From Diphasiastrum complanatum (Eukaryota > Streptophyta > Lycopodiopsida > Lycopodiales > Lycopodiaceae), in the NCBI GenBank assembly GCA_029204225.1, contig CM055096.1, positions 63,579,240 through 63,643,239 on the forward strand: a stretch of 64,000 bases of DNA, given 5' to 3'. The position numbers and the translations under genes are program-made. The notes under the pieces are model-generated. The model did not search any database and was not told the origin of the DNA. It worked only from the letters and a program-made list of their open reading frames with translations. This document shows positions 24,870 through 63,899 of the stretch, piece after piece; positions within the stretch are counted from its first letter, which is position 1; the number at the start of each line of letters is the position of its first letter.

Positions 24870-26023
24870 TCTTCAGGTCCTACAAGAGCTGCTATGAGCA
24901 ACCTCTATTGGTTGATGAGACCTGCCCTTCTAGCTCATCACTGCCCGAAGAGACCCAAAAATATTGAAAATGAATATGACAGATGGTTGAGATGAGAAAA
25001 TTGATGTACCATTAATGTATATGCATTGTTAAACCATGGTTAACAGGGTTAACCAGAGTCACCAAATAGATTAGTGTTTCAAATTTTCGCCAAAACTTTT
25101 TCTCAGATTCATGGCTTTTTGTATACGCAAATTTCATATTCATAGTTCATTGTTTCAGATTTTTGCATGCAAATTACGAATGGCGCCATCAAGGAAGTCG
25201 TGCTCCTCAATCGACTATGTGCTTCTATTCAACGAGACAGATGATAATGGATTATGGGTGCCAAGAAAATATTCAAAAAACTCTTGGGTTTTGATGCATC
25301 CATCATCAAGAGGAGCATTTCGAAAACTATCATTTTGATCTTATTGAAATGCCAGAATTTTGGATTTCAGAACATCATCAGGAGGAAAATCTATTTCTGA
25401 AATTCTAGTCCAACATGTATATATGCATTCAGAGATAAATGTGCAAGGATTCAACTGTTAGGATTACAAAAAAAGCAACCGTGAGTATTGATATTTTTGA
25501 TACTTTGATTTTTGTCATTCATAAATATCTAATAGTAAACTTCCAATCTGATCATTTTTCTCTTGTAGATTTATATCCATCTAACATAAATGAATGGGAG
25601 CCGAGTGGATCTTTAGCAAGTGTGTTAGATGTTATTCACACTGATATTGGACAACTACAATATCGAGGTAGAACTGCAAAAGATCTAATTGATAGTGGGA
25701 TCTTTTTTCATGAATCAAAGTACATTCCTGATACAAAAAGAAATTTGTGACAAATAGTACCAATTCCATTACCTAGTCTTGAAAGTGATGAATGGATTGC
25801 AGCAGATGCTACAGTCTCAAAGTCATTTCGTTGCAAGATATATAATGATGTAAAAAATTCATTAAAAATGAGCACGAGATCAAATATAGTTAGATTGAAT
25901 TGGTTTATTTTCTTGAATATATTTGTGGATTTCTTTTCAAGTGTCAATGTACACAACACCCCAACGAGGTTTGTATGCAAAAATTTATTAGATAGTTTAT
26001 TATCTGAACTTATGGATGAAGGC
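24870..26023 (+). pseudogene. Gene C of the H3 element, left copy (unknown function)
   Basis: A putative multi-exon gene of unknown function. An exon after 'ctcttcag' near 24,876 encodes WLMRPALLAHHCPKRPKNIE and stops soon after DRWL. Further same-strand open stretches at 25,174-25,337, 25,569-25,748 and 25,751-26,023 carry IPLPSLESDEWIAADATV, and the last ends SELMDEG then TGA. In the right copy (34,690-34,397) the DRWL exon runs directly into the segment homologous to 25,885-26,020. So about 0.9 kb present here is absent there, either an intron-plus-exons block or an insertion. No Pfam-type domain is recognised. The frame is interrupted several times. Confidence 0.5.
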
Positions 26024-26065
26024 TGAGACAAAAGATCAGAAGGAGAAATAGAATGCAGAATTAAA

Positions 26066-26529
26066 ATGTCTTTCATGTGCTTCCACTATCAAATTGAAAA
26101 ACAAATGTTGAGCTTATGCTTCCATTATCAAAGACGAAAAAAAAATAAAGGTAAATGGGTGTCACTCGATCAAGACTTGGAAGCCAATGGACATTCAAAA
26201 CAAAAAAATATTGAAATTATATACAATGATGTCGTTTTGACATGTGTTGAGGTGGAAGAAGATTGGAGTCTAAACTACATCAGGCGGGAACTATTGCTCG
26301 TACAAGATAATGTACTTTCAGACTTCAAATTCATTTTCAATGGTAAACTCGTAAGTAACTGTAAACACTCGTTCTTTTATAAATAGTTTCAATCAAAACT
26401 CTCTAATACAAACTCTATACTAATTCTAACTGACTTTGTATTAGTTTTATGCAGGTACGTAAAAGACATGAGCTCAAGATCAAATGCAAAGATATTGGCG
26501 AAACAATCCAACTTATGGAAGAACATTGA
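26066..26529 (+). CDS. Gene D of the H3 element, left copy (possible ubiquitin-like fold)
   Basis: Two exons join in phase: 26,066-26,350 (95 codons, donor GTAAGT) and 26,455-26,529 (acceptor TTATGCAG), giving about 119 residues. The N-terminus has two CFHYQ motifs, then a basic patch (RRKKNKGKW) and the segment VEEDWSLNYIRREL. The C-terminal third alternates hydrophobic residues in a beta-rich pattern (DFKFIFNGKLV, then KCKDIGETIQL). That pattern resembles the last strands of ubiquitin-like domains, where a protein-interaction face would lie. This is shape-based inference only. It runs toward the protease gene, whose 3' end is at 26,723, so the two converge. Intact in this copy, broken in the right copy. 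Confidence 0.6.
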
Positions 26530-26722
26530 GATTCACTATCAGCAAATACATGCCAATCATCATGTCTTTTTATCATTATAGAAAAATTGCATTCCAGTAT
26601 TAGACTATGAACACAAGTTGATTGTAAGAATCTATTGTGATATCAATAAAAAAAACCCATAAACGGGTTGTTTACATGTAAAATGATTGTATCTTTTTTT
26701 TTTTTTATGTCTATAAATCTCT

Positions 26723-27571
26723 CTATTCAATCAATTTTTCTATATTTTCTATATCAGTATTATGAACTGATAAGGCAACAGCTCCTTCTATAATCTTGCC
26801 CTCTTCTGTTTTGGAAAGGGCCTCAATGCCTTTTAAGACAAGAGGAATATTTGCTACAAAATTGCCTTCCTCTGTATTAGGAAGGACTTTTATTTTTTAT
26901 TTTATCATATAAAATAAGATCTGCATCCTGAACAACCTGAAAGGCTGTTAAGACAGGAGCAGCTTTCTTTTGAGGGCCCTCGATTGTAGGTGCAACGCTT
27001 ACACCGTACTGGGCATAGGTTCTGATCAACTCTTGCCGAAATCTATATACATCATCAAGAGTATACGGCTCAAGAGTGAACTATCATCACAAAACACATC
27101 ACCAAATTACAAACAATGATAGTAATAAAATATGAATCAGAATGAAATGAACTACAAATGAATAGAATATTACCTTTTCAATATCTACATCCATTTGTGA
27201 ATTATACCATTCAAAAAATAGCCTCGTATTGTACAGGACGAACCATGCACAACTAAAAGCGTCTGTTTGTTGTACACACTGAATATATAAAACGAAAATT
27301 AGTAATATTATGAAAGAAATTTTATCTATGCTATGACGATACATTTGCTATGACGATACATTTCAATCAAAAAAGAAAGTTTTTTGATCTCCCTCAGCCA
27401 GACCTGCTTCATGCCACGCCTACGGCCAGTACCAGGGGGAACACGGGAATGGGATGGCTGTACAGTGGTTATGGCACGGGAAGGGGATGGTTGTACAGTG
27501 GTTATAGCACGGGAAGGGGATGGCTGTACAATGGTTATGGCACGGGCGGTGGATTTGGTCCTGGCCATCAT
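26723..27571 (-). pseudogene. Histone H3-Ulp1-like protease gene, left copy (internal deletion)
   Basis: Start ATG at 27,571 (or 27,568). The protein begins MARTKSTAR, the canonical H3 tail start with R2, T3, K4 and R8 kept but Ala instead of K9. Three 11-residue repeats (ITTVQPSPSRA type) follow, then the H3 alpha-N segment WLREIKKL at about 27,380. There the H3 fold and the protease His exon are lost, and the sequence jumps to the protease end. After an acceptor CAG at 27,281-27,279 comes CVQQTDAFSCAWF, the Gln and catalytic Cys motif of C48/Ulp1 proteases. It continues to a donor at 27,173, and from 27,080 an exon reads FTLEPYTLDDVYRF. A one-base frameshift lies before the closing segment, which ends NIEKLIE at 26,723. 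Non-functional as it stands, but it supplies the tail and the protease C-terminus missing from the right copy. Confidence 0.75.
27442..27540. repeat. Three 33-bp repeats in the H3 tail coding region
   Basis: Units at 27,442, 27,475 and 27,508 each encode 11 residues (ITTVQPSPSRA with one or two changes) and keep the frame. The right copy has a single surviving unit at its truncation point. Confidence 0.9.
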
Positions 27572-28383
27572 TCTCAAAAGAAGAAAATTAACAAAAAAAA
27601 GTTTGAACGAAAGAAAAGTAGAAGAAAACAAAAAAAATTGTGATGAAAGGGCGCTTGAGATCGATACCAGAACTGAATATCGGTTTCGAGTGCAAGATCT
27701 ACACATATTATTTGAAGAAAAGAGATGCGCGCTCGAAAGTGATATTGCACTACTAGCGGTATTGGACTCGAGCGCACTATGGGAGGGTCGAAGCTTGAAC
27801 AGTGAAAGAGCGCGCTTGAGAGCGAAAATTTTGAGAAAAAAAATGAAAATTTCGAGGACTTATATATATGAAATTTTTGCATGTGTGAATACACATGTCA
27901 TTAGATAATTGGGCCGCGTGGAATGTCCGTACTGATGACCCAATTATGAGGCCACGTGGGGTGAGACATGTGCGCGAATATGTTATCGACGCGTGCCATT
28001 CTCGCACGTGAGAGATGTCAGATCAATCATTCTAGGTACGGCGCATTTATTTTGACCAATCACAAGTTGACACGTGTTCCTTCGCCACTCCTCCACACGT
28101 ACAATTTTTTTTTTTATAAATAGGTCTTTTTTAGTTCGAATTTCACGCAAATTTACAATTGCTTTGCCGGATATCGATTTCAAGCGCGCCGCGTGCTCTC
28201 ATTACCTTTCGTTGACTATTTTGCGTTTGGATCCGATATTGCATCGTTCGGTATCGCATTCAAGTGCACTTCGCATCTCTTTTCTTTTCTACTCTGTGTT
28301 CTTGCGCTCGGATCCGATACTCCAACTTCAAATATCTCTCCCGAACGATATTTGAAACTTTAGTTCTATTATTTTTGTTTAAA
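27572..28383. promoter_or_regulatory. Bidirectional intergenic region between H3-protease gene and gene A
   Basis: 812 bp separate two divergent start codons. On the plus side a TATA-like 'tataaatagg' lies at about 28,116, some 270 bp before the gene A ATG. On the minus side 'catatatataag'-type AT boxes lie near 27,860. Several CACGTG/CACGTGG-like G-box words occur (27,953, 28,004, 28,071, 28,094). Layout suggests a shared divergent promoter; use is not demonstrated. Confidence 0.45.
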
Positions 28384-29886
28384 ATGTCTAATTTTGAATC
28401 CAGTTTGCTTTCTTTTTTTAATGAATTTGGTATTACTGATAGGTTGGACTCTTTCCGTTCTCTTTTTTTTCCTTTTCTTTTTATTCTACCTTCTATAACT
28501 GAGGGCCCTGGTGTGGAGGCATTTTTTGAAATATATCTCAGATTTAAGTCCCTACTCAGTACTTAGTTATTCAGATCTCAGAATAAGGACATGATTCATT
28601 ATCAGGACCTGGTGGCACTCGACAAGCATATCTATAAAGCTAAGCTTGACAGAATGTCTACCAAGTTACATAATGATTTCAAGTCTGTAGATGAGTGCCC
28701 AATTCATAATAAAAAATGTAGATTTGTTGATTTTCATTCTGCTTTTGTTTTTTTCCTTTTGTTAAATATTTTTGACAATTCGGAGGCTGTGCCCTCCACT
28801 TCTCAAGCAGTTTCTTCTAGTGGTATAAAGTCTGAAAAGTCAAAGGTTGTAGATATAGATACTTTTTTTATTGATACGAGTGTTAATTTAGATGATTGTA
28901 TTAATTTTGATCCTGCTCGAAATAAGACTACTTTTATAGGCCCTAGAACACCTACTACCCTTTCTGATAAATCTTTGATCACTTTGCCTACTTATAATAT
29001 AGATAATAATTCTTTTTTGACAATATCGGATCTTTTTTACTTCACTGAAGCTGAGACTCTTTGCATTTTGAACAAAGATCTTGATGAATTTTCATATATA
29101 ATTGATTTTGATGCTGATGATCTTCTCTCTGGTGTTGACGATGTACATAATGATAAGTTTTATTCATGGAAAGATTGCTTGAAAATGGTTGTGGAGGAAA
29201 TGCGCAACAAAGAAGATGATCTACCTTCTAAGGAGGAGTTTCTTAGAATCCAAAGTCAACTTGGTTTTCCACAGCCAACTGTCTATTCACTAACAATATT
29301 GACATCGAAAGGTGGACATAATATTGATGGAGAGACAGTAATCAGAGAAGACAAAGCCAAATGCGTAAGTTTTTGTCTCTTATCAAATAATAGTAGATTT
29401 TTTATGTATATAATATTCTAGAGCTTACTTTGTTTTTTATCATTTCAGAAAACAATTTTCCTTGATGATTTCGCAATTCGTCGAGGAGGGCAGAGATCTT
29501 CTGCTAGAGAATTTTTAAGAGATCATGCACTAGGGCACTATCGGAAGTCCTTCAAGAATAATGAGATAAGTGTTGCCCATTCAAAGTTTCATCAACATGG
29601 TGAAACCATGATTATGGAAATCAAGGCACTGTCTCATTTTCTTGGAGGACATAATTTCAATAAGATGCATAAAATAGTTTTTGCAAAGAAAACTATTGCG
29701 GTTAAAATTTTAGGATATGGACCAGTGAATTCCATGCTCAGATCATATTATTTTGCAGTGTATGCTGCTTACGTTGATCTGAGTAAGCATGAAAACTATG
29801 AGCTATTGGATCCATACGAAAGAAGAAAATTGTTGCATAATTCTCAGTTGCAACTTTCATTGGAAAAAATATCGGAAGCATATTAG
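28384..29886 (+). CDS. Gene A of the H3 element (unknown function)
   Basis: A protein of roughly 470 residues with no family I recognise. The frame starts MSNFESSLLSFFNEFG at 28,384, meets one in-frame TAG at 28,564, and continues open from 28,567 to 29,364. A GTAAGT donor and a TTTCAG acceptor (29,365-29,448) join KAKC to KTIFLDDF in phase. The last exon runs to TAG at 29,886. Features are an acidic middle (DLDEFSYIIDFDADDLL), a conserved-looking block TFIGPRTPTTLS, and a His-rich C-terminal region (HALGHYRKSF, HSKFHQHG). The TFIGPRTPTTLS block recurs inverted at 32,015-32,137, so the gene belonged to both element copies. The stop may mean decay or an unseen intron. It ends tail to tail with gene B. 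Confidence 0.65.
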
Positions 29887-31835
29887 ATACTGCTGAATTG
29901 TACTTTGTATATATTTTTATTTAATATACAAAATTTTATTGTGTGTCTATAGCCTACTGGCTTGTATAAATTTGCATGCTTTTTGAAATTTTTTATAATC
30001 CGTCGATTTTGTATTATGACGAATTTGGACTCTTCTGTAAAACCATTGAAAAAGTTGCAGTATATAGTTGTTTTTTGTGCTGGTCCTGTCACGTTGTGTA
30101 CTTTTATAAAATGACGCTCTTGCTTACCAATGAGATTTTTCCATTTCTTGCGATGACCATATGCTAAGACTTCCACTGTTTCTTGCAAAGAATGTCGAAT
30201 TATGTCGTAATATGTGCTGCATGTCATAAAAATATAATCTAAATCAGTACCAAAAGTATCTAATTATATTGCACATATTTGTCTATCGTAGTGTAACATC
30301 GAAATCTTACCATATAACGTGTTATATGATCAACACCCCATGCACTTTGAACTGCATCCACAAATTCACTAGTTGTTGTCTATATCATTTGTACATCGAT
30401 ATTTGAAGTATTTCACCATGTTGTCTAACTTTTTCCAAACTTCTACTTTGTGTATACGAGTAGAACCTTCTTCCTCGAAACCTTGAGTTGCTGCAATAAT
30501 TTCTTTCCAAACCATGTATTGAACCTTAGATTGTTTGCCAGAATAATTTGATAAAAATCTTCGAGCTTTAGATCTTCCAATGCTCGGCTATAGAATATTT
30601 CCTATTTTACCTGATAGCTTGTCATCTTTTTTTATTTTAACTTGGCCTTTATGTAAGTCTGCTTTGGACAACACATCCTCTAATCTGGAAATAGCTTCCT
30701 TTGTAGAGGCCTCTGGCTCGGAATTCCATGCAAACAATATGTGAAGATATATTATTTTTTCTATAATACGCACCTCCACATGCAATGTACATATATGAAC
30801 ATTTTGTAGAGAAATCGATAGTACAGGTTTCCAATTAGGATCTTCACGATCCCTTGATATTCCTGTACTCCTTGTCATGTCTTTTGCAATTTTCATGCAG
30901 TACAAAGAAGGGTGTTTAGGGTTAGCGCCATGAGATACATTGAACATACATTTTAATGTCTTCAGATCTTCTACTAAATGCCATTCAATGTTGAAAGTGC
31001 CAATTCTAGGAATATTGAGCGGAACTCCCTCCATGTGATTTTTTATGGTGGCAAGCTATGATGTTCTATTAAATATTCATGAGAGAAGGTTATAGTCTTC
31101 TTTCAGCACCTATAAGAGAATACAAAAACGTGATTAGCCTCATAATATTAACACAGAGAAGATTTTAGATATGAAATCCATATCCAAATGATTATCTCTA
31201 TTTATTATGCGAAGGAACTGCTATACTTGAAATGCTACCAACCACCAGATATCATTTTCAGATTGAACACTGAAATTGAGGCCTTCTGAGTCTTCTAAAT
31301 TTGAAAGTGCTCCATTCATGATTGTGAGACTGACTCTTTCCATTTTTTGTCCTTTTATAATTTCAGACTCATCTAATTTGAGAACAACTATCAACTTGTT
31401 ATTGACATTCTCATTTTTAATACCGTAAAAATTTATGATGAATGTTAATAATTGATTGATGTCAATAAATAAATTGTTGGAATTGTTATAAGCTAGACTT
31501 TCTCCTTTCGAGCAATACACTTCATTGATATGAGATGGATTACCAACTATTGTCTACATACCATGGTTTAACATGTCTTTTTTTTTTTTAAGATGCAATG
31601 GTCGTGGGATTGGAAACTTTTTTTTATTTACCTGTGCAAATGCCTCCATTGTCATCTTAAACATTGTTGCATATGCTTCCCTATTGATGCTAGAAAAGTC
31701 ACATGCCCCCTGAAGCAATGTAGTGTCTACACCTTCATCCATAATGCTATCAGTAACTGAAGCCTTAATCTTATTCATTTTGTTATCATTTAACATTGAT
31801 TTCATAAATTTAACATTGATTCTCCTACATGGCAT
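29887..31835 (-). pseudogene. Gene B of the H3 element (multi-exon, transposase-like)
   Basis: Recognisable exons on the minus strand: 31,835-31,632 (MPCRRINVKF, donor GTAAAT), 31,553-31,227 (holds IVVLKLDESEII and ends VAFQ, donor GTATAG), 31,109-30,588 (after TTATAG) and open stretches to about 30,320 and from 30,216 to 29,886. The third exon carries the spaced motif GANPKHPSLYC, an SxxxxHPxxYC pattern I associate with zinc-binding regions of several uncharacterised transposon-borne proteins; it ends KIKKDDKLSG. A TGA near 31,078 and a frame change after 30,588 break it. A DNA-transposase role is inference from layout, the His/Cys motif and the neighbouring mobile genes. No DDE triad could be assigned. 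Only one copy exists in the window. Confidence 0.5.
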
Positions 31836-32014
31836 TTCTTATAGGGCCCTCTTTGGGCCCATATTTTCTCTAATGCTTAGCCGGAATTTGGTGGCCAACC
31901 CTCTTCAAAGATACCCACCACTATGTAAAGGCCTATGATGTTTGTCAAAGAATAAAACGCTTTTAAAAAATTGACTTTTTGCCTTTACACCTTGTCATGA
32001 CTGATCAAGCCTTC
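31836..32014. other. Junction spacer between inverted element copies
   Basis: Contains 'gggccctctttgggccc' followed by 'tctctaatg', which resembles the right end of the MITE at 34,022-34,396, so a MITE remnant may mark the junction. No coding sequence. Confidence 0.35.
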
Positions 32015-32137
32015 CAAAAAGGGATTATTATCTATATTATAAGTAGGCAAAGTGATCAAAGATTTATCAGAAGGAGAAAGGGTAGTAGGCGTTCTAGGGC
32101 CTATAAATGTAGCCCTATTTCGAGCAGGATCAAAAGT
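32015..32137 (-). pseudogene. Inverted fragment of gene A
   Basis: On the minus strand it reads FDPARN followed by TFIGPRTPTTLS and TLPTYNIDNN, matching gene A codons at about 28,900-29,020. It stops abruptly at 32,137 where the H3 tail sequence begins. That breakpoint removed the H3 start codon and the divergent promoter of the right copy. Confidence 0.85.
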
Positions 32138-33371
32138 GCCATAACCACTGTACAACCATCTCATTCTCGTGTTCCCTCTGGTACTGGCCATAGGCGTGGC
32201 ATGACACAGGTCTGGCTGAGGGAGATTAGAAAACTCCAGAGATCAACTGAATTGTTGATCCCTAGAGCTCCTTTCGGCCGAGCTGTTCGAAATGTCACTC
32301 TGTCACTTGGGCTGAATGTTCATTTTGCCATAACAGCCATGCAGGTCTTACACGGTGCTGCAGAAGATTTTATGTCCCAATTTTTTAAGGATACTTGTCT
32401 TTTGGCAATGCATGGTAAGCGTGTCACCATCATGCCAAAGGATTTCGTCATTCTCAAAAGGCTTCGGGACAGATATTCTGGTCTGCATGTTGATAATGCC
32501 AGCACCTCCAGAGACCTGCCTCTACATAGAACCAACGTGCCTACTACCTCTAGGAGGAAGAGAAAGCAGCTTGTCCCAAAAAAGGCTGGATCTCAAAGGC
32601 CAACTGCTTCCCTTCCTCCTAGACGTATCCCGGCCAAGAGACCATGTGTCTTCTTGAGCTCTGAGTCAGATGCTGGAGAATCTGACTCAAATCGAGAATC
32701 TTCACCCCTTCCTCCTTTTATTAGTCCTATGGCAAAATTCTATTTGATTCCATATGAAAATAAGTAAGGATTGCTCTTTGTTTTTGTTGCTTTAATCTGG
32801 ATTGTTGCATACTTCATTGCTTTAATAAGAACGGAATTTTTTCATAAATATGGATTTATCGATATTTGTATTTTGGTTATTGCAGTCGGCATTGGAGCCT
32901 GAACATTCTTTTTGTAAAGATAAATAAGGAGGGAGTATTAAATTTTCTATGTTTTAAATTAAACTCAGCTACAAATACACATAGAAAATTTGATCTCCAC
33001 TTCATGATGTTGTTCGGGAAATACCGACAACGACAACTTCAATTGGAGAGATAACCATTAAATCTCTCAAGGTATATTCAATTTGTCTCTGATATGCATG
33101 TATTCTTTTTTTAATTCAAATGTATCGTCATAGCATAGATAAATTTTCTATCATAATATTACTAATTTTCGTTCTATATATGCAATGTGTACAGCAAAAA
33201 GACGCTTTTAGTTGTGCATGGTTCGTCTTCTACAATACAAAGAATATTCCTCTTGTCTTAAAAGGCATTAAGGCCTTTCCCGAAACAGAGAAGGGCGAGA
33301 TTATAGAAGGAGCTGTTGCCTTATCAGTTCCTAATACTGATATGGAAAATATAGAAAAATTGATTGAATAG
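32138..33371 (+). pseudogene. Histone H3-Ulp1-like protease fusion, right copy (5' truncated)
   Basis: Exon 1 (32,138-32,763) lacks the start but keeps one tail repeat, then a full H3 fold at about 32,212-32,484: LREIRKLQRSTELLIPRAPF, MQVLHGAAEDF, and KRVTIMPKDF in helix 3. LLIPxAPF and AAEDF recall centromeric H3 variants. A 90-residue basic, Ser/Pro-rich linker follows, then AKFYLIPYEN. The GTAAGG donor at 32,764 and TTGCAG acceptor ending 32,885 join in phase to give ENN-RHWSLNILFVKI, the catalytic His context of C48/Ulp1 proteases; Asn stands where the family usually has Asp. A stop at 33,054 precedes a likely donor at 33,071. The Cys motif VQQKDAFSCAWF is at 33,190-33,225, but its acceptor reads CAA rather than CAG. 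An internal deletion then joins to the closing segment ending at 33,371. Confidence 0.8.
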
Positions 33372-33573
33372 AGAAATCTATTTGTAAATAGAGAGACATA
33401 AAAAAAAAAGATACAATCATTTTACATGTAAACAACCCGTTTATGGTTTTTTTTTATTGATATCACAATAGATTCTTACAATCAGCTTGTGTCCATAGTC
33501 TAATACTGGAATGCAATTTTTCTATAATGATAAAAAGACATGATGATTGGCATGTATTTGCTGATAGTGAATC

Positions 33574-34015
33574 TCAATGTTCTTCCATAAGTTGGATTGT
33601 TTTGTCAATATCTCTGTATTTGATCTCGAGCTCATGTCTTTTACATACCTGCATAAAACTAATACAAAGTTAGTTAGAATTAGTACAGAGTTTGTATTGA
33701 AATTTTTTTATTGAAACTATTCAAAAAAGATCGAGTGTTTACAGTTACTTATGAGTTTACCATTGAAAATGAATCTGAAGTCTGAAAGTACATCATCTTA
33801 TAGGAGCAATAATTCCCGCCTGATGTAGTTTAGACTCCAATCTTCTTCCACATCAACACATGTCAAAATGGCATCATTGTATATAATTTCAATATTTTTT
33901 GGTTTTGAATGTCCACCAAGTCTTGATCGAGTGGCACCCATTTACTTCTATTTTTTTTCCATCTTTGATAATAAAAGCATAAGCTCAACATTTGGTTTTC
34001 AATTTGATAACGAAA
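33574..34015 (-). pseudogene. Gene D of the H3 element, right copy (broken)
   Basis: Inverted counterpart of 26,080-26,529. It shares QIENQMLSLCFYYQR, KWVPLDQDL and, in shifted frames, the later segments including the second exon near 33,575-33,650. A small deletion after QDL and further indels break the frame. Upstream, homology is interrupted by the MITE at 34,022-34,396 and resumes in gene C. Confidence 0.7.
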
Positions 34016-34021
34016 ACACAC

Positions 34022-34396
34022 ATTAGAGGAGTTTTGAGTTCCAAAAAGACCCTTTAAGAATTCATGCAAGATGCCTTTTTTATTATTAAAATATTATAAC
34101 ACTAAAACATTTGACTTGCCGTAGCTTTTTAATCGTAGCTCAGAAGTATGCATGTAACATATTATTGGAAAGCCCTTGTTGAGCACTTTCTAGTGCACCA
34201 AATTTTGCTAAATTCGGACTTACCACTAAAAAGTTATGCCATTTTTAGTATGGAATCAAAATGTGGACTAAAAAAGTTACATTACGTAGATTTCAAATTT
34301 GAGTGTTTTGATTGGTCCATGTGTAAGAAAAATTTGAGAAAAAATATAAAAAGAATCTTTACAAAGGGTCTTTTTGGGATTTAGAACTCCTCTAAT
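34022..34396. mobile_element. MITE inserted in the right element copy
   Basis: Ends are inverted: GAGGAGTT(t)TGAG(t)TCC at the left and its reverse complement at the right, followed inwards by 'aaaaagacccttt' on both sides (about 30 bp in all). TA flanks both ends, so a TA target duplication is likely. The left element copy lacks this insert at the homologous place, so it arrived after duplication. Interior is AT-rich and non-coding. Family unknown to me. Confidence 0.75.
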
Positions 34397-34690
34397 GTGG
34401 AAGACATTTTAATTCTGCATTCTATTTTTCCATCTGATCTTTTGTCCGAGCCTTCATCCATAAGTTCAGATAATAAACTATCTTATAAATTTTTGCATAC
34501 AAACATCGTTGGGATTTTGTGTACATTGACATTTGAAAAGAAATCCACAAATATATTCAAGGAAATAAACCAACTCAATCTGACTCAACCATCTGTCATA
34601 TTCATTTTCAATATTTTTGGGTCTCTTCGGGCAGTGATGAGCTGGAAGGGCAGGCCTCATCAACCAATAGCATTTCCACATGCTGCCTAA
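34397..34690 (-). pseudogene. Gene C of the H3 element, right copy
   Basis: On the minus strand an exon after 'tttcattag' reads WLMRPALPAHHCPKRPKNIE and then, without the 0.9-kb block present in the left copy, QIELVYFLEYICGFLFKCQC to a stop. Similarity to the left copy is high. The short product ends at MQKFIR. Either this is the older, compact form or an exon-skipping deletion. Confidence 0.6.
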
Positions 34691-34739
34691 TGAAACAGCA
34701 ATATATTAAAAAAAAAAATTATTTTATTTATATTTGAAA

Positions 34740-34866
34740 AATTCTACGTTACGTAGAACCTCGAAGCTAAGGTTTCAATTGGTCCACATGGCAACAAAAA
34801 TAAGAAAAAAAATAAAAAAAGTATCTTTTTCAAAGGCCCTCGTCGGGCTCTGAGTTTCTCTAATGA
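34740..34866. repeat. Remnant end of the same MITE family
   Basis: Shares the order 'ggtccacatgg', an A-rich 'aaaaaaaataaaaaaagtatct' region, 'caaagg(g)c/tc', and 'ctctaatg' with the right end of 34,022-34,396. It stops at 34,866 where copia LTR sequence begins. Confidence 0.5.
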
Positions 34867-35384
34867 TTACACCGTCATTTTTTGTTGTAATTGCTATTTG
34901 TATTGTGCTTCAGTGTAATATAGCAGCAGCACATTTTTATTAGTATACAACGTAGATGAATGCTTGTTGTGATTGAATGCACTTTTATTGCTATTTGATT
35001 GTGCTTGTATACTCATTCTGATCAGAACACGGAGGTCTACAACTCCTCAGTTTCTGATCAGACGATAGTTGTCTTGAGGAATTTGTGATATTATACGACT
35101 CATCCATTTATTTCAGAACTATACTTCACATTGAATCTGATTTCAATAGTACCACACACAAACCATCTCTAATCTCTTCGGTGGACTGTACTCTTGTTTT
35201 AGAGTATGAATTAATTTTAAGATCCTGTTGGGCAATCAAAACACATGAAGCTGTGATTATCTTTAGCATAAGCTGTCTATTAGACTATTTTTGCACCTAG
35301 CAGTCGATTAGAACGAGGGAACTGTTCCGCAATATTCCTGCTCTCTTCTCTGTTCTCGTTCTTCCTTCTACATTGCCCCCATCA
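34867..35384 (+). mobile_element. Ty1/copia element 1, truncated 5' LTR
   Basis: Matches the last 529 bp of the 3' LTR (40,437-40,965) and ends in the same 'ttgcccccatca'. The first two thirds of the LTR are absent, so the element was truncated at its 5' end next to the MITE remnant. Confidence 0.9.
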
Positions 35385-39468: not shown

Positions 39469-40965
39469 TGTTGGAAATTAAGCCCACAGTTGCCTCCTTG
39501 GTGAACAATAACTTAGACAGCCAATTACTTGAAGAACATGTACAACGGACTTTTGGTTGATTGCCAGCAAAGGGTAACCAATCCCATTATAAATTTGAGT
39601 TCACATGTTAAGTTTAATAACTTGAAGTCATTGAAGACTTAGCCATCTTCAAGGACTTCCACAAACTTGCATTTAGAACAAGTCTGCAGATTTACATCAC
39701 TTTTTTTAAACAGTCTGCATAAATACACTAAGTGTCGCACAGTTCACATTTTTCGCACTTTTCCGAAAACTGCAAAACTTGCCTTCAACTTCTTCTATTC
39801 AATTATTTTGAAGAAGTTAACTTGTTCATAGTTCAAAAGTTTAACGATTTTTTCACCTTCGGCTTTTCTGCATTTTTCCGAAAAATGCAAGAAAAGATAA
39901 ATTCCAGAAGGTCCTCTATTTTTACGAGTTAAACTGTTAAAGGCACCTTCGCCAACTTTCTAAGGGCACCTTAAAGTTGTTTTGAAGGTACCTTCGGCTT
40001 CTTCACATTTTTTCAAAGAATGCGAGAAAGCCAAACTGTTACAAAGATCTTCGTCTTTCTGAGGGAACCTTCAACTTTGTAAGGGCGCCTTAAACTTATT
40101 TAGGACACCTTCGACTTTTTCGCAAAAAACCCAAAGAGAGAGAAAAATGCCGAAGGTCGTCTAAAATGAACGAGGTGTGTTCCCACGTTACTTCGCGAAA
40201 TTTTGCAAAGTGATAGAAATTTGCGACGTCCTCATCCGCATCAATGGTCCTAATTTGTTGACCGTATACACTATGTACAGTTGTCACAGAAGCCATATAC
40301 TTCCAAGTACAACGGCTTTCCCAATTAGGTGACAAACATTCAATGTACTTAATACACGGATGAAATCTATAAGTAGATCATCCAAGCACAGATTAGTGGT
40401 TGTTTTGTCCATGAGACGTGTTATTTGAGCCTCCCAGTTACGTCATCAATTTTTGGTTGTAATTGCTATTTGTATTGTGCTTCAGTGTAATAGAGCGGCA
40501 ATATGTTTTTATCTATGTACACCGTAGATGAATGCTTGTTGTGATTGAATGCACTTTCATTGTTGTTTGATTGCTCTTGTATACTCACTCTGATCAGAAC
40601 ACGAATGTCTACGACTCCTCAGTTTCTGATCAGATGATGGCTGTCTTTGACACCTGAGGAACTCGTGATATCATACTGCTCTTCCATTTATTTCAGAACC
40701 ATAATTCACATTGAATCTAATTTCAGTAGTACCACACACAAACCATCTCTAATCTCTTCGGTGGACTGTATTCTTGTTTTAGAGCATAAATTAATTTTTA
40801 AGATCCTGTTGGGAAATCAGAACACATAAAGTTGTGATTATCTTTAGCATAAGCTGTCTATTAGACTGTTTCTGCACCTAGCAGCCAATTAGAACGGGAG
40901 AGCTATTCCACAATATTTTTGCTCTCTTCTTTGTTCTCGTTCTTCCTTCTACCTTGCCCCCATCA
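39469..40965 (+). mobile_element. Ty1/copia element 1, 3' LTR
   Basis: Starts TGTTGGAAATTAAG and ends CCCCCATCA, 1,497 bp. A TATA-like 'tctataagta' lies at 40,366, just upstream of the part retained in the 5' LTR. The U3 part holds several imperfect repeats of 'ggcaccttcg' (about 39,942, 39,965, 39,986 and 40,083). A related LTR lies at 58,560-59,205. Confidence 0.88.
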
Positions 40966-48433: not shown

Positions 48434-48948
48434 ATGTTGATATTGTCATCTGATTACTGTAGTTTAGATAGGGATATTATTGAACATTCTGCAGTACCTG
48501 TGGGAGCAAATACTGAACAAAGACTTGCTGCACTTGAGGTTTCCTTTGAATATCTTTCACATTCTATGCAAGCTATACACGATATTCTCCTGAATTTTGT
48601 CGCCATGAATGAGATTAGGTGCCAGGCGCTAACATTACTTGGGGGCAATGCAGACAAGAGTAGCAAATGGCCGAGAGAATGGGGCGATTAGAGCACGACA
48701 TATCTTTGGCGCTACCCCGCACTATCAATTCGTCTATCAATTCGTCATTGCGCTTCCTTGAATGCCTTGAAGGGATTACCAATTCTCGAGGAGAACTACC
48801 ATCTAATTTCCCTGCAACCATTGTTGCAGTAGATGGCTTGACAGAGCAGGAGGCCATCGAGCTCCTTCAATTCTATGAGCTCCCCTTGTTTGGAGACAGG
48901 AATCAGCTCATCAGAAGGCTTGCTTACCATCTTGGCTTCAGAATTTGA
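48434..48948 (+). pseudogene. SAP-motif gene, left copy
   Basis: First part (to 48,691) reads VPVGANTEQRLAALEVSFEY with heptad-like spacing and then LNFVAMNEIR, a likely coiled coil. The second part (48,667-48,948), in another frame, contains RMGRLEHDISL and near its end LTEQEAIELLQFYELPL followed by GDRNQLIRRL. The latter fits the SAP motif (helix, 'LP..G.(K/R)..L(I/V).RL', helix), a 35-residue module that binds scaffold/matrix-attachment or other AT-rich DNA. The 162-bp deletion removed the start codon seen in the right copy. A G5 run at about 48,641 shifts the frame in both copies. Confidence 0.6.
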
Positions 48949-48959
48949 GGGCGCTCTTC

Positions 48960-51050
48960 AAAGATTGTTCTTGTTTGAAATCTCAGGCTTGAACAGTCTC
49001 AGACTTGCAACCATCATGCCCAGTCTTGTGTTTTGAAAGGCATTTATGTACCCCTTTTTTTAAAAGGTAGAAAGGACTTTGATCACGACGCCTTTGTTGA
49101 GCTTGAAGTTTTGATTTTGCAAAGTAAATCCTTGGAATCTCAAATAAGCAGCAATCTTTGCTTGTCCTTTTGATCTTTTAGATGGGACAACAAAGCGCCT
49201 TGTTAACACTCTTTGAGGTTCTATTCATTAAGTGCTATGGTTTGTTATGAGCTTTTATGTTGAAATATTTCCAGGATCTTTTCCTTTGTAGATCAATGCT
49301 ACTTGTGTGCATGTGAGATTTTACAACATGGTATTAGAGTAATAAGTGTGCTTTTGACTTTGTCTTGTGAGACTCTGGTTCAATTTATTGCTTATTGAGA
49401 GTAAAATTTTCTTCCAAGGGTGTGAAAAAAACCCTAAGACTTTCGTGGTGGAACTTGTCTTTGTTTCTTGTGCACAAATAAAAATTTTCTCAGTATGTGT
49501 GCAAAAACGTTTAGAGGGAAGAAATTATAGGTTTTCTAGAAAATCCTTGTCCTTGGTAATCCATTTTCTTTAGAAAAAGTTGGCAATGATGAGGGCTAAA
49601 CATTTGCAATCCTAAGAAACACTGAGGGTTCATAAATCAGGCACAATAACAGTTTTGTAGCAGCAATTGACATGCCATAACACAGGATTAACACAGGATT
49701 TCAGGTCTCTAAATTAGCAAAAAATGACATGAGTTACAGGTGCATATCAACAACAAGACGGATTGTTAAGACGAATTACTAGCAGCAACTATACTATCCA
49801 AACCTGTAGCAGACCATGCAACTTCGTTGCAAATTTATATAACAATCTAAAGTAAACTATTTGCCAAATCTTGAAAACTTTTCAGCTTTGGGGGTTGTGT
49901 ACATCAGTTTTCACGAAGTAGATTACATACTTGCATCATTAGTAAAGACTTCCCAGCCCTGCAACAAATAGGTGATAAAAAAAATGGCCTTCAATAGTAG
50001 TTTCACAAATAAATATCCTCTCAAGTTAACTTCTTTTGTCCTTATGACGACAAAGCATGGCAAGATCAGATGGCTCTAGCTAAACATTCGGACATTCAGA
50101 ATGCAAAATATTTTAAGACAGATATGTAGAAGACTGTTACCAGAGACAAAAAAAGACACAAGAAAAGAACATGTAACAAGGGTGAAGGACTGTGAAAGAT
50201 CTCAAGAACCAATAGACTGTTGTAGGACAAATAGTAATTCGTGCTGACTTGGTACCCATAGTAATTGTGATCAGTTTGAATAGAGACAGCACCATCATAT
50301 GAAAAACGAAGTAGACCGTTGTTGTAGGAGGGAAGTTGAAACTAAAAGATAGTCTGCTTGTTTGAGAAAGAGACCAAAAGCATGATTTTGCAGCTCAACG
50401 CAGACCAAATAGCAAGCTCAAAGTTGTTTTTCTGAATCTCCACACTGCAACAGCAACAAAAGCGGAACAAAGGACGAGGATGAACTCTAAGTGGCAAACC
50501 TAGGATGGCAAACCTAGGAGGAAAGATTGTTTCTACTATAGTAAGAATAAGGAACTTGAATTAAGACAATCATAAACCTCAACCATCATCAATTTATAAG
50601 GCTATGTAATCACACGAGTAAACTACAAGCTCAATTAAAAAATAAATGATTCAATTTTCCGACAAAACCTTTTTAAAATTAGATTGATTGGTGTTGGTTT
50701 TTGGCTTTGCATTGCAAGGGCAATACTATGTGATGAGATCGGTCAATAGAGTTTGGAAAAAAGTTAACATTATTGGATAAATTTTGTAGGTCGAAACACT
50801 TAAGGTCTGGACATTGATGGAGGGTTGAAATACCGTGTTTGCATGAAAGGTTTGCTTTTGGCCATGCCTTAGAGCATGTGTAAAGTAGAATAGTTAGCAA
50901 ACATGCATAAAGCAGAATATGAATAGTTGGTGTTAGAGAATCTTCTCTGGTGGAACAATAGAAGACCTCAACACAATTTGGCCTTATTGTGGAGATAAAA
51001 AAAATAGAGTCAGCGATGGAAGTATCAAAATGTTGGCTCTGGCAATTTTT
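48960..51050. other. Non-coding part of the inverted duplication, LTR-like end at 49,327
   Basis: 'ttttacaacatggtattagagtaa' at about 49,321 looks like an LTR end plus a degenerate initiator-Met primer site on the plus strand. A 68-codon frame at 49,367-49,573 recurs in the other arm (62,788-62,603), because the whole region is duplicated. No gag or pol domain follows. Confidence 0.45.
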
Positions 51051-51059
51051 GCTATCATT

Positions 51060-51190
51060 TTGTGGCATATGTTAGTTCCAGAGGAGCAGCATCACAAGAT
51101 GCTTTGAACTTGGTTGAAATGTACTCACCACCATTGTCACTCCTCAAGCGCTTGATGTTAAATTGGTTCTCCCTTAAATTCTTGAACTAC
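51060..51190 (-). pseudogene. Copia integrase fragment in the left arm
   Basis: The reverse strand matches copia element 2 near 60,995-61,130, including the segment that encodes LRSDNGGEYIS there. Similarity ends at 51,190, where unrelated sequence begins. Confidence 0.8.
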
Positions 51191-59999: not shown

Positions 60000-61135
60000 T
60001 GACAAATGAACTTTTTAAGGAAGTTGGAATGGCTTGAAGGGCAAGATCAAGACGAGCCAGTTTCTTTTGTTGGTAGAAAGAAAGATAATGTCAAAGCTTC
60101 AATGTTTCTATTGTGGAGTCAAAGGGTACTTTAGCGATTGTTTCAAAAAGAAAAAAATCATGGTGAAAAGCAAACAACCCAACTCTAGATGAGGATGATG
60201 ATGATGATGATGAACAAAATACAAATGATTCTTTTGTGATGTCTTCATGCTTGTTGACCAATGGAAGAGATATTGATCCATGTTGGATTGATAGTGGAGC
60301 AAGCTCACATATGAAATGCCACAAAGAATATTTTTCTTCTTTGATGGCTTTTGAAGGTGAGAATAAAGTCATCTACACGGCCAATGATCGTGAGTGTGCA
60401 ATAAAAGGGATTGGCACAATTTCTATTTACCTCTCTACTAATAGGAATGTGAATATGAAGAATGTTTTGTTCATTCCATCAACATCTAAGATTCTTCTTA
60501 TTGTGATTCAAATGCTTGAAGTTGAGTTTGTTGGAGATGCTTGCTTGATAAAAAGAAAGAAGTTTTGATTGCAAAAGAAAAAAGGCAAGGTAGATTGTTC
60601 AAACTTGATGCTTTGTGTTGTTCCAAGTTGGATGTATGGCAAGCGAGCAATTGTCAAATGCAAGAGGTATGGCATAAGAGGTTAGAACATCTCAACTTCA
60701 AGGCATTGGAGGTGATGGCAAAAAGGCAAGTGGTCTTTGGACTTCCTGAAACTCTTACTAGTATCAATCATGTTTGTGAGCATTGTGCTTTATCAAAGTC
60801 CCATAGGCTACATAATAAAAGATCTACATCTAGATCTAGTAAGCATTCCCAACTTTTCCATTTGGATATTCATCGTGTGAGTACAATTAGAAATGGTGGT
60901 GCTAAGATGTATGTGACATTTATTGATGACTTTAGTAGATTTTGTTGGGTATATCTTCTAAAAAGCAAAAATGAGGTGTTTGATGTCTTTGTCAAGTTCA
61001 AGAATCCAAGGGAGAACCAATTCAACATCAAGTGCTTGAGGAGTGACAATGGTGGTGAGTACATTTCAACCAAGTTCAAAGCATTTTGTGATACTGCTCC
61101 TCTTGAACTAGCATATGCCACAAAATGATAGCAAA
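60000..61135 (+). pseudogene. Ty1/copia element 2, gag end-protease-integrase fragment
   Basis: A zinc-knuckle remnant CFYCGVKGYFSDC (His replaced by Tyr, one residue short) near 60,103. Protease CWIDSGASSHM near 60,278. GAG-pre-integrase WHKRLEHLNFKALEVM and CEHCALSKSHR near 60,670-60,800. Integrase HLDIHRVS, FIDDFSRFCWVY and LRSDNGGEYIS to about 61,070. It breaks off at 61,135 before the catalytic Glu; RT and RNase H are missing. One stop (60,568) is bridged by an overlapping frame. Everything after about 60,995 is also present inverted at 51,190. Confidence 0.9.
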
Positions 61136-63899
61136 AATTGCCAGAGCCAACATCCTTGATACTTCCACCACTGACTTTGTTTTTTTTAATCTCCGCAGTA
61201 AGGCCAAATTGTGCTGAGGTCTTCTATTGTTCCACCAGAGAAGATTCTCTAACACCAACTATTCATATTCTGCTTTATGCATGTTTGCTAACTATTCTAC
61301 TTTACACATGCTCTAAGACATGGCCAAAAAGCAAATTTTTCATGCATGCACGGTATTTCAGCCCTCCATCAATGTCTAGACTTTAAGCATTCCAACCCAC
61401 ACACAATTTGTCCTATAATGTTGACTTTTTTCCAAACTCTATTGACCGACCTCAGCACATAGTATTGCCTTTGCAAGGCAACGCCAAGAACCACCACCAA
61501 TCAATCTAATTTTAAAAAGGTTTTGTCGGAAAATTGAATCATTTATTTTTTAATTGAGCTTGTAGTTTACTCGGGTGATTACAGAGCCTTATAAATTGAT
61601 GATGGTTGAGGTTTATGATTGTCTTAAATCAAGTTCCTTATTCTTACTACAGTAGAAACAATCTTTCCGCCTACGTTTGCCACTTAGAGTTCATCCTCGT
61701 CCTTTGTTCCGTTTTTGTTGCTGCTGCGTGGAGATTCAGAAAAACAACTTTGAGCTTGCTATTTGGTCTGCATTGAGCTGCAAAATCATGCTTTTGGTCT
61801 CTTTCTCAAACAACAGACTATCTTTTAGTTTCAACTTTCCTCCTACAAAAACGGTCTACTTCGTTTTTCATGTGATGGTGCTGTCTCTATTCAAACTGAT
61901 CACCATATGTTAGCGAGCTATGGGTACCAAGTCAGCACGAATTACTATTTGTCCTACAACAGTCTATTGGTTCTTGAGATCTTTCACAGTCCTTCACCCT
62001 TGTTACATGTTCTTTTCTTGTGTCTTTTTTTGTCTCTGGTAACAGTCTTCTACATATCTGTCTTAAAATATTTTGCATTCTGAATGTCCGAATGTTTAGC
62101 TAGAGCCATCTGATTTGCAGGCTTGCCATGCTTTGTCGTCATAAGGACACAAGAAGTTAACTTGAGTGGATATTTATTTGTAAAACTACTATTGAAGGCC
62201 ATTTTTTTTAATCACCTATCTGTTGCAGGGCTGGGAAGTCTTTACTAATGATGCAAGTATGTAATCTACTTCGTGAAAACTGATGTACACAACCCACAAA
62301 GCTGAAAAGTTTTCAAGATTTGGCAAATAGTTTACTTTTGATTGTTGTATAAATTTGCAACGAAGTTGCATGGTCTGGTACAGGTTTGGATAGTATAGTT
62401 GCTGCTAGTAATTTGTCTTAACAATCCGTCTTGTTGTTGATATGCACCTGTAAGTCATGTCATTTTTTGCTACTTTAGAAACCTGTAATCATATGTTATG
62501 GCATGTCAATTGCTGCTACAAAACTGTTATTGTGCCTGATTTATAAACCCTCAGTGTTTCTTAGGATTGCGAATGTTTAGACCTCATCATTGCCAACTTT
62601 TTCTAAAGAAAATGGATTACCAAGAACGTGGATTTTCGAGAAAACCTAAAATTTGTTCCCTCTAAAAGTTTTTGCACACATACTGAGAAAATTTTTATTT
62701 GTGCACAAGAAAGGAAGACAAGTTCCACCACAAAAATCTTAGGGTTTTTTTCACACCCTTGGAAGAAAATTTTACTCTCAATAAGCAATAAATTGAACTA
62801 GAGTCTCATAAGACAAAGTCTTCTAGAAGCACACTTATTACTCTAATACCATGTTGTAAAATCTCACATGCACACAAGTATGATTGATCTACAAAGGAAA
62901 AGATCCTTGAAATAGTTCATAACAAACCATAGCACTTAATGAATAGAACCTCAAAGAGTGTTAACAAGGCGCTAAAAGAACAAGCAAAGATTGCTGCTTA
63001 TTTGAGATTCCAAGGATGTACTTTGCAAAATCAAAACTTCAAGCTCAACAAAAGGCGTCGTGATCAAAGTCCTTTCTACCTTTTAAAAAAGGGGTACATA
63101 CATGCCTTTCAAAACACAAGACTGGGCATGACTTTGAAGGTTGCAAGTCTGAGACTTGTCAAGCCTGAGATTTCAAACAAGAATAATCTTTGAAGACCGC
63201 CCTCAAAAAAATCTGAAGCCAAGATGGTGAGAAAGCCTTGTGATCAGCTGATTCCTGTCTCCAAACAAGGGGAGCTCATAGAATTGAAGGAGCTCGATGG
63301 CCTCCTGCTCTGTCAAGCCATCTACTGCAACCTTGGTTGCAGGGAAATTAGATGGTAGGTCCCCTCGAGAATTGGTAATCCGTTCAAGGTATTCCAAAAA
63401 GCGCAATGACGAATTGATAGCGCAAAGATATGTCGTGCTCTAATCGCCCCATTCTCTCTGCCATTTGCCCAACTCTTGTCTGCATTGCCCCCAAGTAATG
63501 TTAGCGCCTGCAACCTAATCTCATTCATGGCGACAAAATTCAGGAGACTATCGTGTATATCTTGCATAAAATGTGAAAGATATTCAAATGAAACCTCAAG
63601 TGCAGCAAGCCTTTGTTCAGTATTTGCTCCCACAGGTACTGCAAAATGTTCAATCTCTGGAGCGGGAGGTTGTAATGGAAGCTGAGCGTTTCTCAAATTG
63701 TCCCCTCCTGCTCCAGCCATCCTTGCAGTTAAGCCCTGGATTCAGCAAGCAAAGCAAAGACCAGATTGCGTCTCAAAAAAATCCACATGCATACTGTGAA
63801 ACGATCTAATCTCAATAATATCCCTATCTCAACTACAGTAATCATGACAATATCAACATACAGTGTGAAACTATTCCATCTCAAAATATCCATCTGCCA
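60995..63899. repeat. Large inverted duplication, right arm
   Basis: Reverse-complement partner of 48,395-51,190. It keeps about 162 bp (near 63,655-63,816) missing from the other arm, including the SAP gene's start codon. Copia element 2 runs into it without a break, so the copia end of the duplicated block is native here. The outer end stops at 63,899 with the 'ggcagatggatattt' words that in the left arm belong to the end of the R2-like ORF. Confidence 0.88.
63203..63720 (-). pseudogene. SAP-motif gene, right copy
   Basis: Start ATG at 63,720 gives MAGAGGDNLRN, then a Pro-rich stretch and the coiled-coil-like VPVGANTEQRLAALEVSFEY. The frame shifts at the same G-run as in the left copy. The C-terminal part, in the other frame to 63,203, carries LTEQEAIELLQFYELPL and GDRNQLITRL, the SAP-like motif. 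Upstream a 'ttgctgaatccagggcttaa' stretch precedes the ATG. If the shift is corrected by an unseen small intron or by sequencing error, a protein of about 170 residues with N-terminal coil and C-terminal DNA-binding SAP would result. Otherwise both copies descend from an already broken parent. Confidence 0.6.

Follow-up and report, generated by a model that had tools for sequence, protein, structure and literature searches.

The closest described systems share some features with the element reported here. In the fungus Pyrenophora tritici-repentis, a hAT transposon carries an H3-like gene, H3L, that matches neither H3 nor CenH3 completely (available text of PMC3538342), and this was the single precedent found for an H3-like gene on a transposon. 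VANDAL/KIU elements carry Ulp1 and induce hypomethylation of related elements, according to the available text of a review (PMC13317346). Here we describe a 64,000-nucleotide stretch of the clubmoss Diphasiastrum complanatum (the window; contig C5, 63579240-63643239, in an assembly of 1.74 Gb and 5,176 contigs) that carries damaged copies of a terminal inverted repeat (TIR) transposon, one gene of which almost certainly joins a histone H3 domain to a C48-like cysteine protease. A preliminary description of the window had proposed such an in-frame fusion on a mobile element, and the H3, linker, AKFYLIPYEN, NRHWSLNILF and QQKDAFSCAWF motifs that it named were all present where it had placed them. 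The fusion is upheld at the DNA level, with the C48 label a sub-threshold profile match only, and the mobile element is corrected to a TIR DNA transposon with a RAG1/Transib-like transposase fold, as read from a homologue.

The native structure of the gene was established by comparison with copies elsewhere in the same genome (family 1). In four of these (L009, L010, L018 and L020) exon 1 is a single open frame of 369-376 amino acids (aa). It opens with the H3 start (MARTKSTAR in L018), passes into the histone fold and then a basic Ser/Pro linker, and reaches a protease strand by way of a conserved segment; it is followed by exon 2 (~62 aa, with HW), exon 3 (35 aa, with QQ-x5-C) and exon 4 (~117 aa). 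Searching the genome with exon 1 yielded 10,416 candidates at first look, and 112 rows were obtained from the 110 places that were scored; with stops read through, 91 of the 112 rows cover the histone fold and extend at least as far as residue 360. One spliced query matched both Pfam Histone (expectation value, E, 5.3e-23) and Peptidase_C48 (E 0.0013), the latter match falling under the curated cutoff. Intron 1, which had been placed between 32,763 and 32,886 and said to restore the frame into NRHWSLNILF, was read as 32764-32885; its GT-AG borders are kept in 11 of the 15 copies having both ends, a count that includes the window and the near-duplicate pair L009/L010, and those of intron 2 in 11/14. 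When the protease part was searched against a protein database (7,998 candidates scored), the sole match was a D. complanatum gene model, P0140 (O6H91_Y440400; 79% over 19% of the query). This model holds exon-4 sequence at its C-terminus beginning exactly at the predicted acceptor, consistent with that splice site. P0140 is itself a host gene model, which may either have captured this exon from the element or be wrongly predicted.

A genome search for close copies produced 7,708 candidates at first look; 150 of them were scored, and every one matched at E <1e-94. The gene in the window is therefore not a chance arrangement. The 150 listed places occur on every contig from C1 to C23. Each genome search scored only its best 51-150 candidates, so that the totals of 7,708, 10,416, 20,245, 6,060 and 6,106 count candidates at first look, before scoring, and pairs of near-identical places in the close-copy, exon-1, P0122 and family-2 H3 searches are not independent. 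The clubmoss genome would contain histone-bearing repeats of which hundreds are confirmed and which perhaps number in the thousands (10,416 being the unscored exon-1 figure); repeats of this kind would lead histone annotation astray and might influence host chromatin.

The identity of the first domain as H3 is certain on sequence grounds. PF00125 matched family 1 at E 8.3e-23 and 5.3e-23, the former for the open reading frame (ORF) at 31967-32767, in agreement with the fold recognised earlier. The best PDB match was H3.1/H3.2 of 8kcb, which we take to be from Arabidopsis (76.7 bits, with CENP-A at 74.8 bits, a small difference), and the 120 matches listed in a protein database search were near-canonical H3s. 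Alignment to canonical H3 was gapless over 87 residues, with identities of 47-48% in family 1 and 54% in a second family discussed below. Residues of H3 that contact the nucleosome are R49, R63, R69, R72, R83, H113, K115, R116, T118 and D123, and most were kept (R49 15/17, R69 14/17, R72 16/17, R83 10/17, H113 17/17, K115 17/17, R116 14/17, T118 17/17 and D123 16/17). In the tail, K4 was present in 16/16 copies while K9 was replaced in 15 of 16 and other lysines were few; because K9 is replaced, a nucleosome containing the element H3 could not receive K9 methylation. The centromeric variant CENH3/CENP-A has a longer loop 1 than canonical H3, and assignment of the element H3 to that class was ruled out, as neither family has a loop-1 insertion.

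The second half of the protein is called C48-like. PF02902 matched four spliced queries (E 0.0013, 0.0048, 0.0013 and 0.0095; 16.2-19.1 bits) and gave no match in six controls, one reversed and five shuffled. Peptidase C48 members have their His in an HW motif and a Gln six residues ahead of the nucleophile Cys. Among the copies the HW His was kept in 14/15, the Gln six residues before the Cys in 14/14 and the Cys itself in 14/14, and it is this conserved pattern, together with the silent controls, that backs the label.

Substitution patterns were examined in 15 copies, with the window and L010 (a near-copy of L009) left out. For changes shared by at least two copies, the ratio of nonsynonymous to synonymous rates (N/S) was 0.37 in H3 (p 2.2e-5), 0.51 in the middle segment, 0.38 in exon 2 and 0.28 in exon 3; the last three pooled gave 0.44 for the protease (p 3.5e-4, exon 4 codons excluded), and the linker gave 1.05 (p 0.6), all p-values assuming independent substitutions. 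With ratios low in H3 and protease and close to 1 between them, constraint is apparent in the two domains but not in the linker. This says that both domains would have been under selection during the spread of the element.

The carrier is recognisable as a high-copy TIR DNA transposon containing a transposase, a gene designated B and the H3-protease gene, and its transposase has a RAG1/Transib-like predicted fold, a homologue (P0122) possessing a core with that fold. RAG1 is characterized by a catalytic Asp-Asp-Glu triad and zinc-binding Cys/His residues. In the alignment D411 and D508 were present in 18/18 sequences and C528 and C531 each in 17/18, the two Cys forming a CxxC 20 and 23 residues past the second Asp as in RAG1/Transib; the Glu was found in 2/18, those being the sequences that reach it. 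An HxxxxH motif followed by Glu 19-20 residues downstream, a further likeness, was recognised by eye in both families as well as in P0122. Transib elements have CACWRTG-like ends and a 5-bp target duplication. In contrast, the clubmoss element ends in CATTAGAG..., shows no target duplication in the three copies having both ends, carries gene B and the H3 cargo, and has a transposase 13-17% identical to RAG1/Transib in the aligned core. Pfam and NCBIfam profiles did not match the transposase or the pieces of gene B. A viral origin was considered and set aside: when viral contigs were scanned once with the transposase alignment, there were 16 pattern matches but no relative among them. Absence of a family from the structure-match lists was given no weight.

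A genome search with P0122 also recovered further transposase families (51 scored places), and, of the 150 rows listed in a search with canonical H3, 13 were full-length host genes (97-99%), 9 were pieces at 79-93% and the other 128 were divergent H3 places. A divergent H3 lay within 10 kb of 16 of the 51 transposase places, compared with a chance expectation of 0.075; for this count 22 of the 150 listed rows (the 13 host H3s and 9 pieces) were removed, and 4 more matches were unlisted. Addition of places from a search with the H3 of the second family raised the figure to at least 21/51, a lower bound that draws on a set of 23 H3 places near transposase places, picked by hand from the two H3 searches; the chance expectation applies to the count of 16 alone. 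Twenty of these H3s lay downstream in convergent orientation, and for 19 of the twenty the distance was 2.3-3.1 kb. Unlike those 20 pairs, the family-2 H3 at C3:933881-934180 lies upstream and on the same strand as the transposase at C3:936980-939109, and is either a rearranged copy or a different element.

In family 2 the H3 frame ends directly after the fold (L035-L037), with PF00125 matches of 2.1e-28 (L036) and 9.4e-28 (L035), and next to it lies a gene B homologue (in L037, 31% over 86 aa, E 1e-12). Between H3 and gene B no protease was seen by eye, and in the two loci checked against Pfam the longest other frame on the H3 strand matched nothing. The family-2 H3 search gave 150 scored rows, of which 111 were stop-free, although a list that begins with the best matches favours open frames. 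In L036, GC-rich near-palindromic repeats (CACGCCAAGGCGCGACCAGGG...GGTCAAACGGGC) follow the H3 stop at ~2280-2020 on the reverse strand. Nine non-canonical residues are common to the H3s of L009 and L036 (W47, P63, R64, A65, L80, Q102, V112, G114 and L130) despite an identity of 43-45% between the families, which suggests common descent of the two H3s. H3 is thus read as common to the broader transposon lineage and its fusion to a protease as a property of family 1; with a separate H3 and no fused protease in family 2, fusion is not the general state.

The window itself contains two damaged copies of the family-1 transposon in opposite orientation (Table 1), identified against 16 ten-kb copies. 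The plus copy has lost the H3 start, ~450 bp between linker and protease, the exon 2 frame, the intron-2 acceptor (now CAA) and parts of exons 3 and 4; its gene is a remnant, rightly recognised in the earlier work. The join between linker and AKFYLIPYEN in the window is a deletion scar, the longer native exon reaching the same protease segment. Between the inverted copies, 31880-31990 (+) resembles a gypsy integrase fragment in translation (IWWPTLFKDTHHYVK, by eye). Direct repeats at 34877-35384 and 40449-40965 (518 bp, 88%) surround copia-like ORFs and probably mark a long terminal repeat retrotransposon, which adjoins the plus copy at its right end. A 2.7 kb inverted repeat (48479-51188 / 60995-63654; 91% identical) lies outside both transposon copies.

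Table 1. Transposon features identified in the 64,000-nucleotide window.
Feature	Position	Strand	Basis or remark
Plus copy, deletion derivative of the H3-protease transposon	32015..34865	+	BLAST against 16 genome copies
Right TIR of plus copy, kept, ending ...CTCTAATG	end at 34865		Left end gone
Histone H3 domain, N-terminal MARTKSTAR part lost	32144..32485	+	PF00125 E 8.3e-23; Pfam span 32144-32455, extension to RYSG by eye
Basic Ser/Pro linker	32486..32727	+	
Deletion joint	32723..32727	.	~450 bp of L018 (5320-5773) gone from plus copy
Exon 1 end, C48-like segment AKFYLIPYEN	32728..32763	+	
Intron 1 (GT...AG)	32764..32885	+	Coordinates read from sequence
Exon 2 with HW motif, frameshifted in plus copy	32886..33071	+	Coordinates read from sequence
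Exon 3, truncated: CVQQKDAFSCAWF (Gln-x5-Cys)	33186..33242	+	Acceptor before it mutated (CAA)
Exon 4 remainder including stop codon	33243..33371	+	
Inverted copy of the same transposon	24905..31875	-	Left TIR at 31875; right end lost; contains remnants of transposase and gene B
Transposase exons, broken, inverted copy	30369..31838	-	ORFs and family homologues; fold from homologue P0122
Gene B, inverted copy	28567..29886	+	ORFs; C-terminal homology to family 2 via copies L022 and L037
H3 start and protease end fragments, internal deletion, inverted copy	26720..27480	-	

What the fusion might do can be approached by analogy with other elements. The H3 domain would pair with host H4 and enter nucleosomes. 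Because its tail retains the K4 environment, lacks K9 and has few other lysines, such nucleosomes would be unable to carry the main silencing mark; the protease fused to it might then remove SUMO- or ubiquitin-like modifiers from nearby silencing proteins, the net outcome being that element copies are shielded from silencing. Family 2, with its stand-alone H3, would rely on the first half of this scheme only. Such an anti-silencing role fits the missing K9 and the SUMO/ubiquitin-like protease by analogy with VANDAL and TET/JBP elements, and we advance it tentatively, at somewhat less than an even chance; the fusion structure and the mechanism assessed jointly come out slightly better than even. 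In the fullest version, a plant transposon lineage with a RAG1/Transib-like transposase would own H3 as a permanent functional component, which in one branch would have become a nucleosome subunit bearing a SUMO/ubiquitin-like protease that writes K9-blind, K4-bearing, de-SUMOylated chromatin on the element's own copies; element-owned chromatin would then belong to the transposition machinery. This version is doubtful as a whole.

Several results weigh against fusion and mechanism as set out here. The PF02902 scores are under the curated cutoff (20.7 bits), and the acid of the expected triad is ambiguous, being either the Asp of EFDS (12/13) or the Asn of KLNS (15/15); of the catalytic motifs proposed earlier, His, Gln and Cys are borne out. 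PDB sequence searches with the protease part found no relative, and AlphaFold run on exon 1 gave no usable model (predicted local distance difference test score, pLDDT, 29). In H3, the contact residue R63 is replaced (Pro in 14/17), and the tail changes could be simple drift. The first 21 codons of exon 4 are without constraint (N/S 0.86, from 4 shared changes only), and the contrast with singletons (N/S 0.69, 0.78, 0.86, 0.38, 0.86 and 0.51 for H3, middle, exon 2, exon 3, linker and exon 4 start) is weak (Fisher p 0.041 for H3 and 0.055 for protease). Counts among the 16 comparison copies are biased because these were picked from the 150 close-copy rows mostly for open H3 frames. Close copies are abundant in the genome, yet not one of 17 (the 16 plus the window) is uninterrupted through exon 4, each having a stop or frameshift, and present activity of any copy therefore cannot be claimed. 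Finally, according to the available text of PMC13317346, it is not known what Ulp1 does in KIU elements.

Other roles were weighed against anti-silencing. The H3 part could instead serve targeting or the transpososome, docking on or replacing a nucleosome for the transposase while the protease clears modifiers that block insertion or repair; this is unlikely, although it remains the strongest of the alternatives, as no narrow target was seen by eye among the listed places on C1-C23. Less probable still is self-processing, in which the protease would cut the linker and free an H3 variant, the fusion being a delivery or regulatory form: the stand-alone H3 gene of family 2 and the unconstrained linker would suit it, whereas no Gly-Gly site was seen by eye in the linkers of L009 and L018. 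We consider passive capture equally improbable. Transposons frequently capture host genes, and H3 and protease might have been acquired by chance and amplified without function, as the lack of an intact copy among the 17 would allow, but neither constraint specific to the domains beside a neutral linker, nor the recurrence of H3 in a strongly diverged second family with 111/150 stop-free rows, nor the nine derived residues common to both families would be expected of such cargo. That the window's deletion alone brought together separate H3 and protease genes can practically be discounted, for although the junction there is a scar and H3 is separate in family 2, an artefact of this kind is ruled out at the DNA level by the native exon 1, one open frame from H3 start to protease segment in L009, L010, L018 and L020, with which 91 of 112 rows agree.

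If the anti-silencing role is correct, a mobile element would supply its own core histone, going beyond the editing of host chromatin; whether a genomic parasite escapes silencing via unmarkable nucleosomes would become testable. The authors of the preliminary description knew of no H3-protease fusion, and our searches of open-licence PubMed Central (PMC) papers likewise found neither a histone-protease fusion nor a RAG1/Transib-like H3 carrier in plants, the available text of PMC12062965 containing nothing on histones in transposons. As far as these searches show, the gene would be the first core histone covalently joined to a tag-removing protease, and its carrier would indicate that plants harbour a transposon lineage of RAG1/Transib-like type, here in a clubmoss.

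KIU/VANDAL elements, which are also DNA transposons of plants, likewise carry a Ulp1 domain and have been connected with anti-silencing, but have a Mutator transposase and a VANC gene and no histone (available text of PMC13317346). Ginger1 also places a Ulp1 domain on a DNA transposon, and Ginger1-9_HM adds a PHD finger; there, however, the protease is borne by the integrase-type transposase itself, the hosts are animals, and the domains described in the available text are Ulp1, OTU and PHD, with no histone (PMC2836005). Fungal TET/JBP transposons resemble the clubmoss element in carrying chromatin-related cargo on diverse DNA transposons with a proposed escape from silencing, the cargo being a DNA-modifying dioxygenase rather than a histone-protease (available text of PMC12730594). 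The Pyrenophora element has a hAT transposase in a fungus, with 26 stand-alone H3L genes and known transcripts (available text of PMC3538342), whereas the clubmoss element occurs in a plant, has a RAG1/Transib-like predicted fold and far more candidate places, and comprises two families, in one of which the H3 is fused to a C48-like protease.
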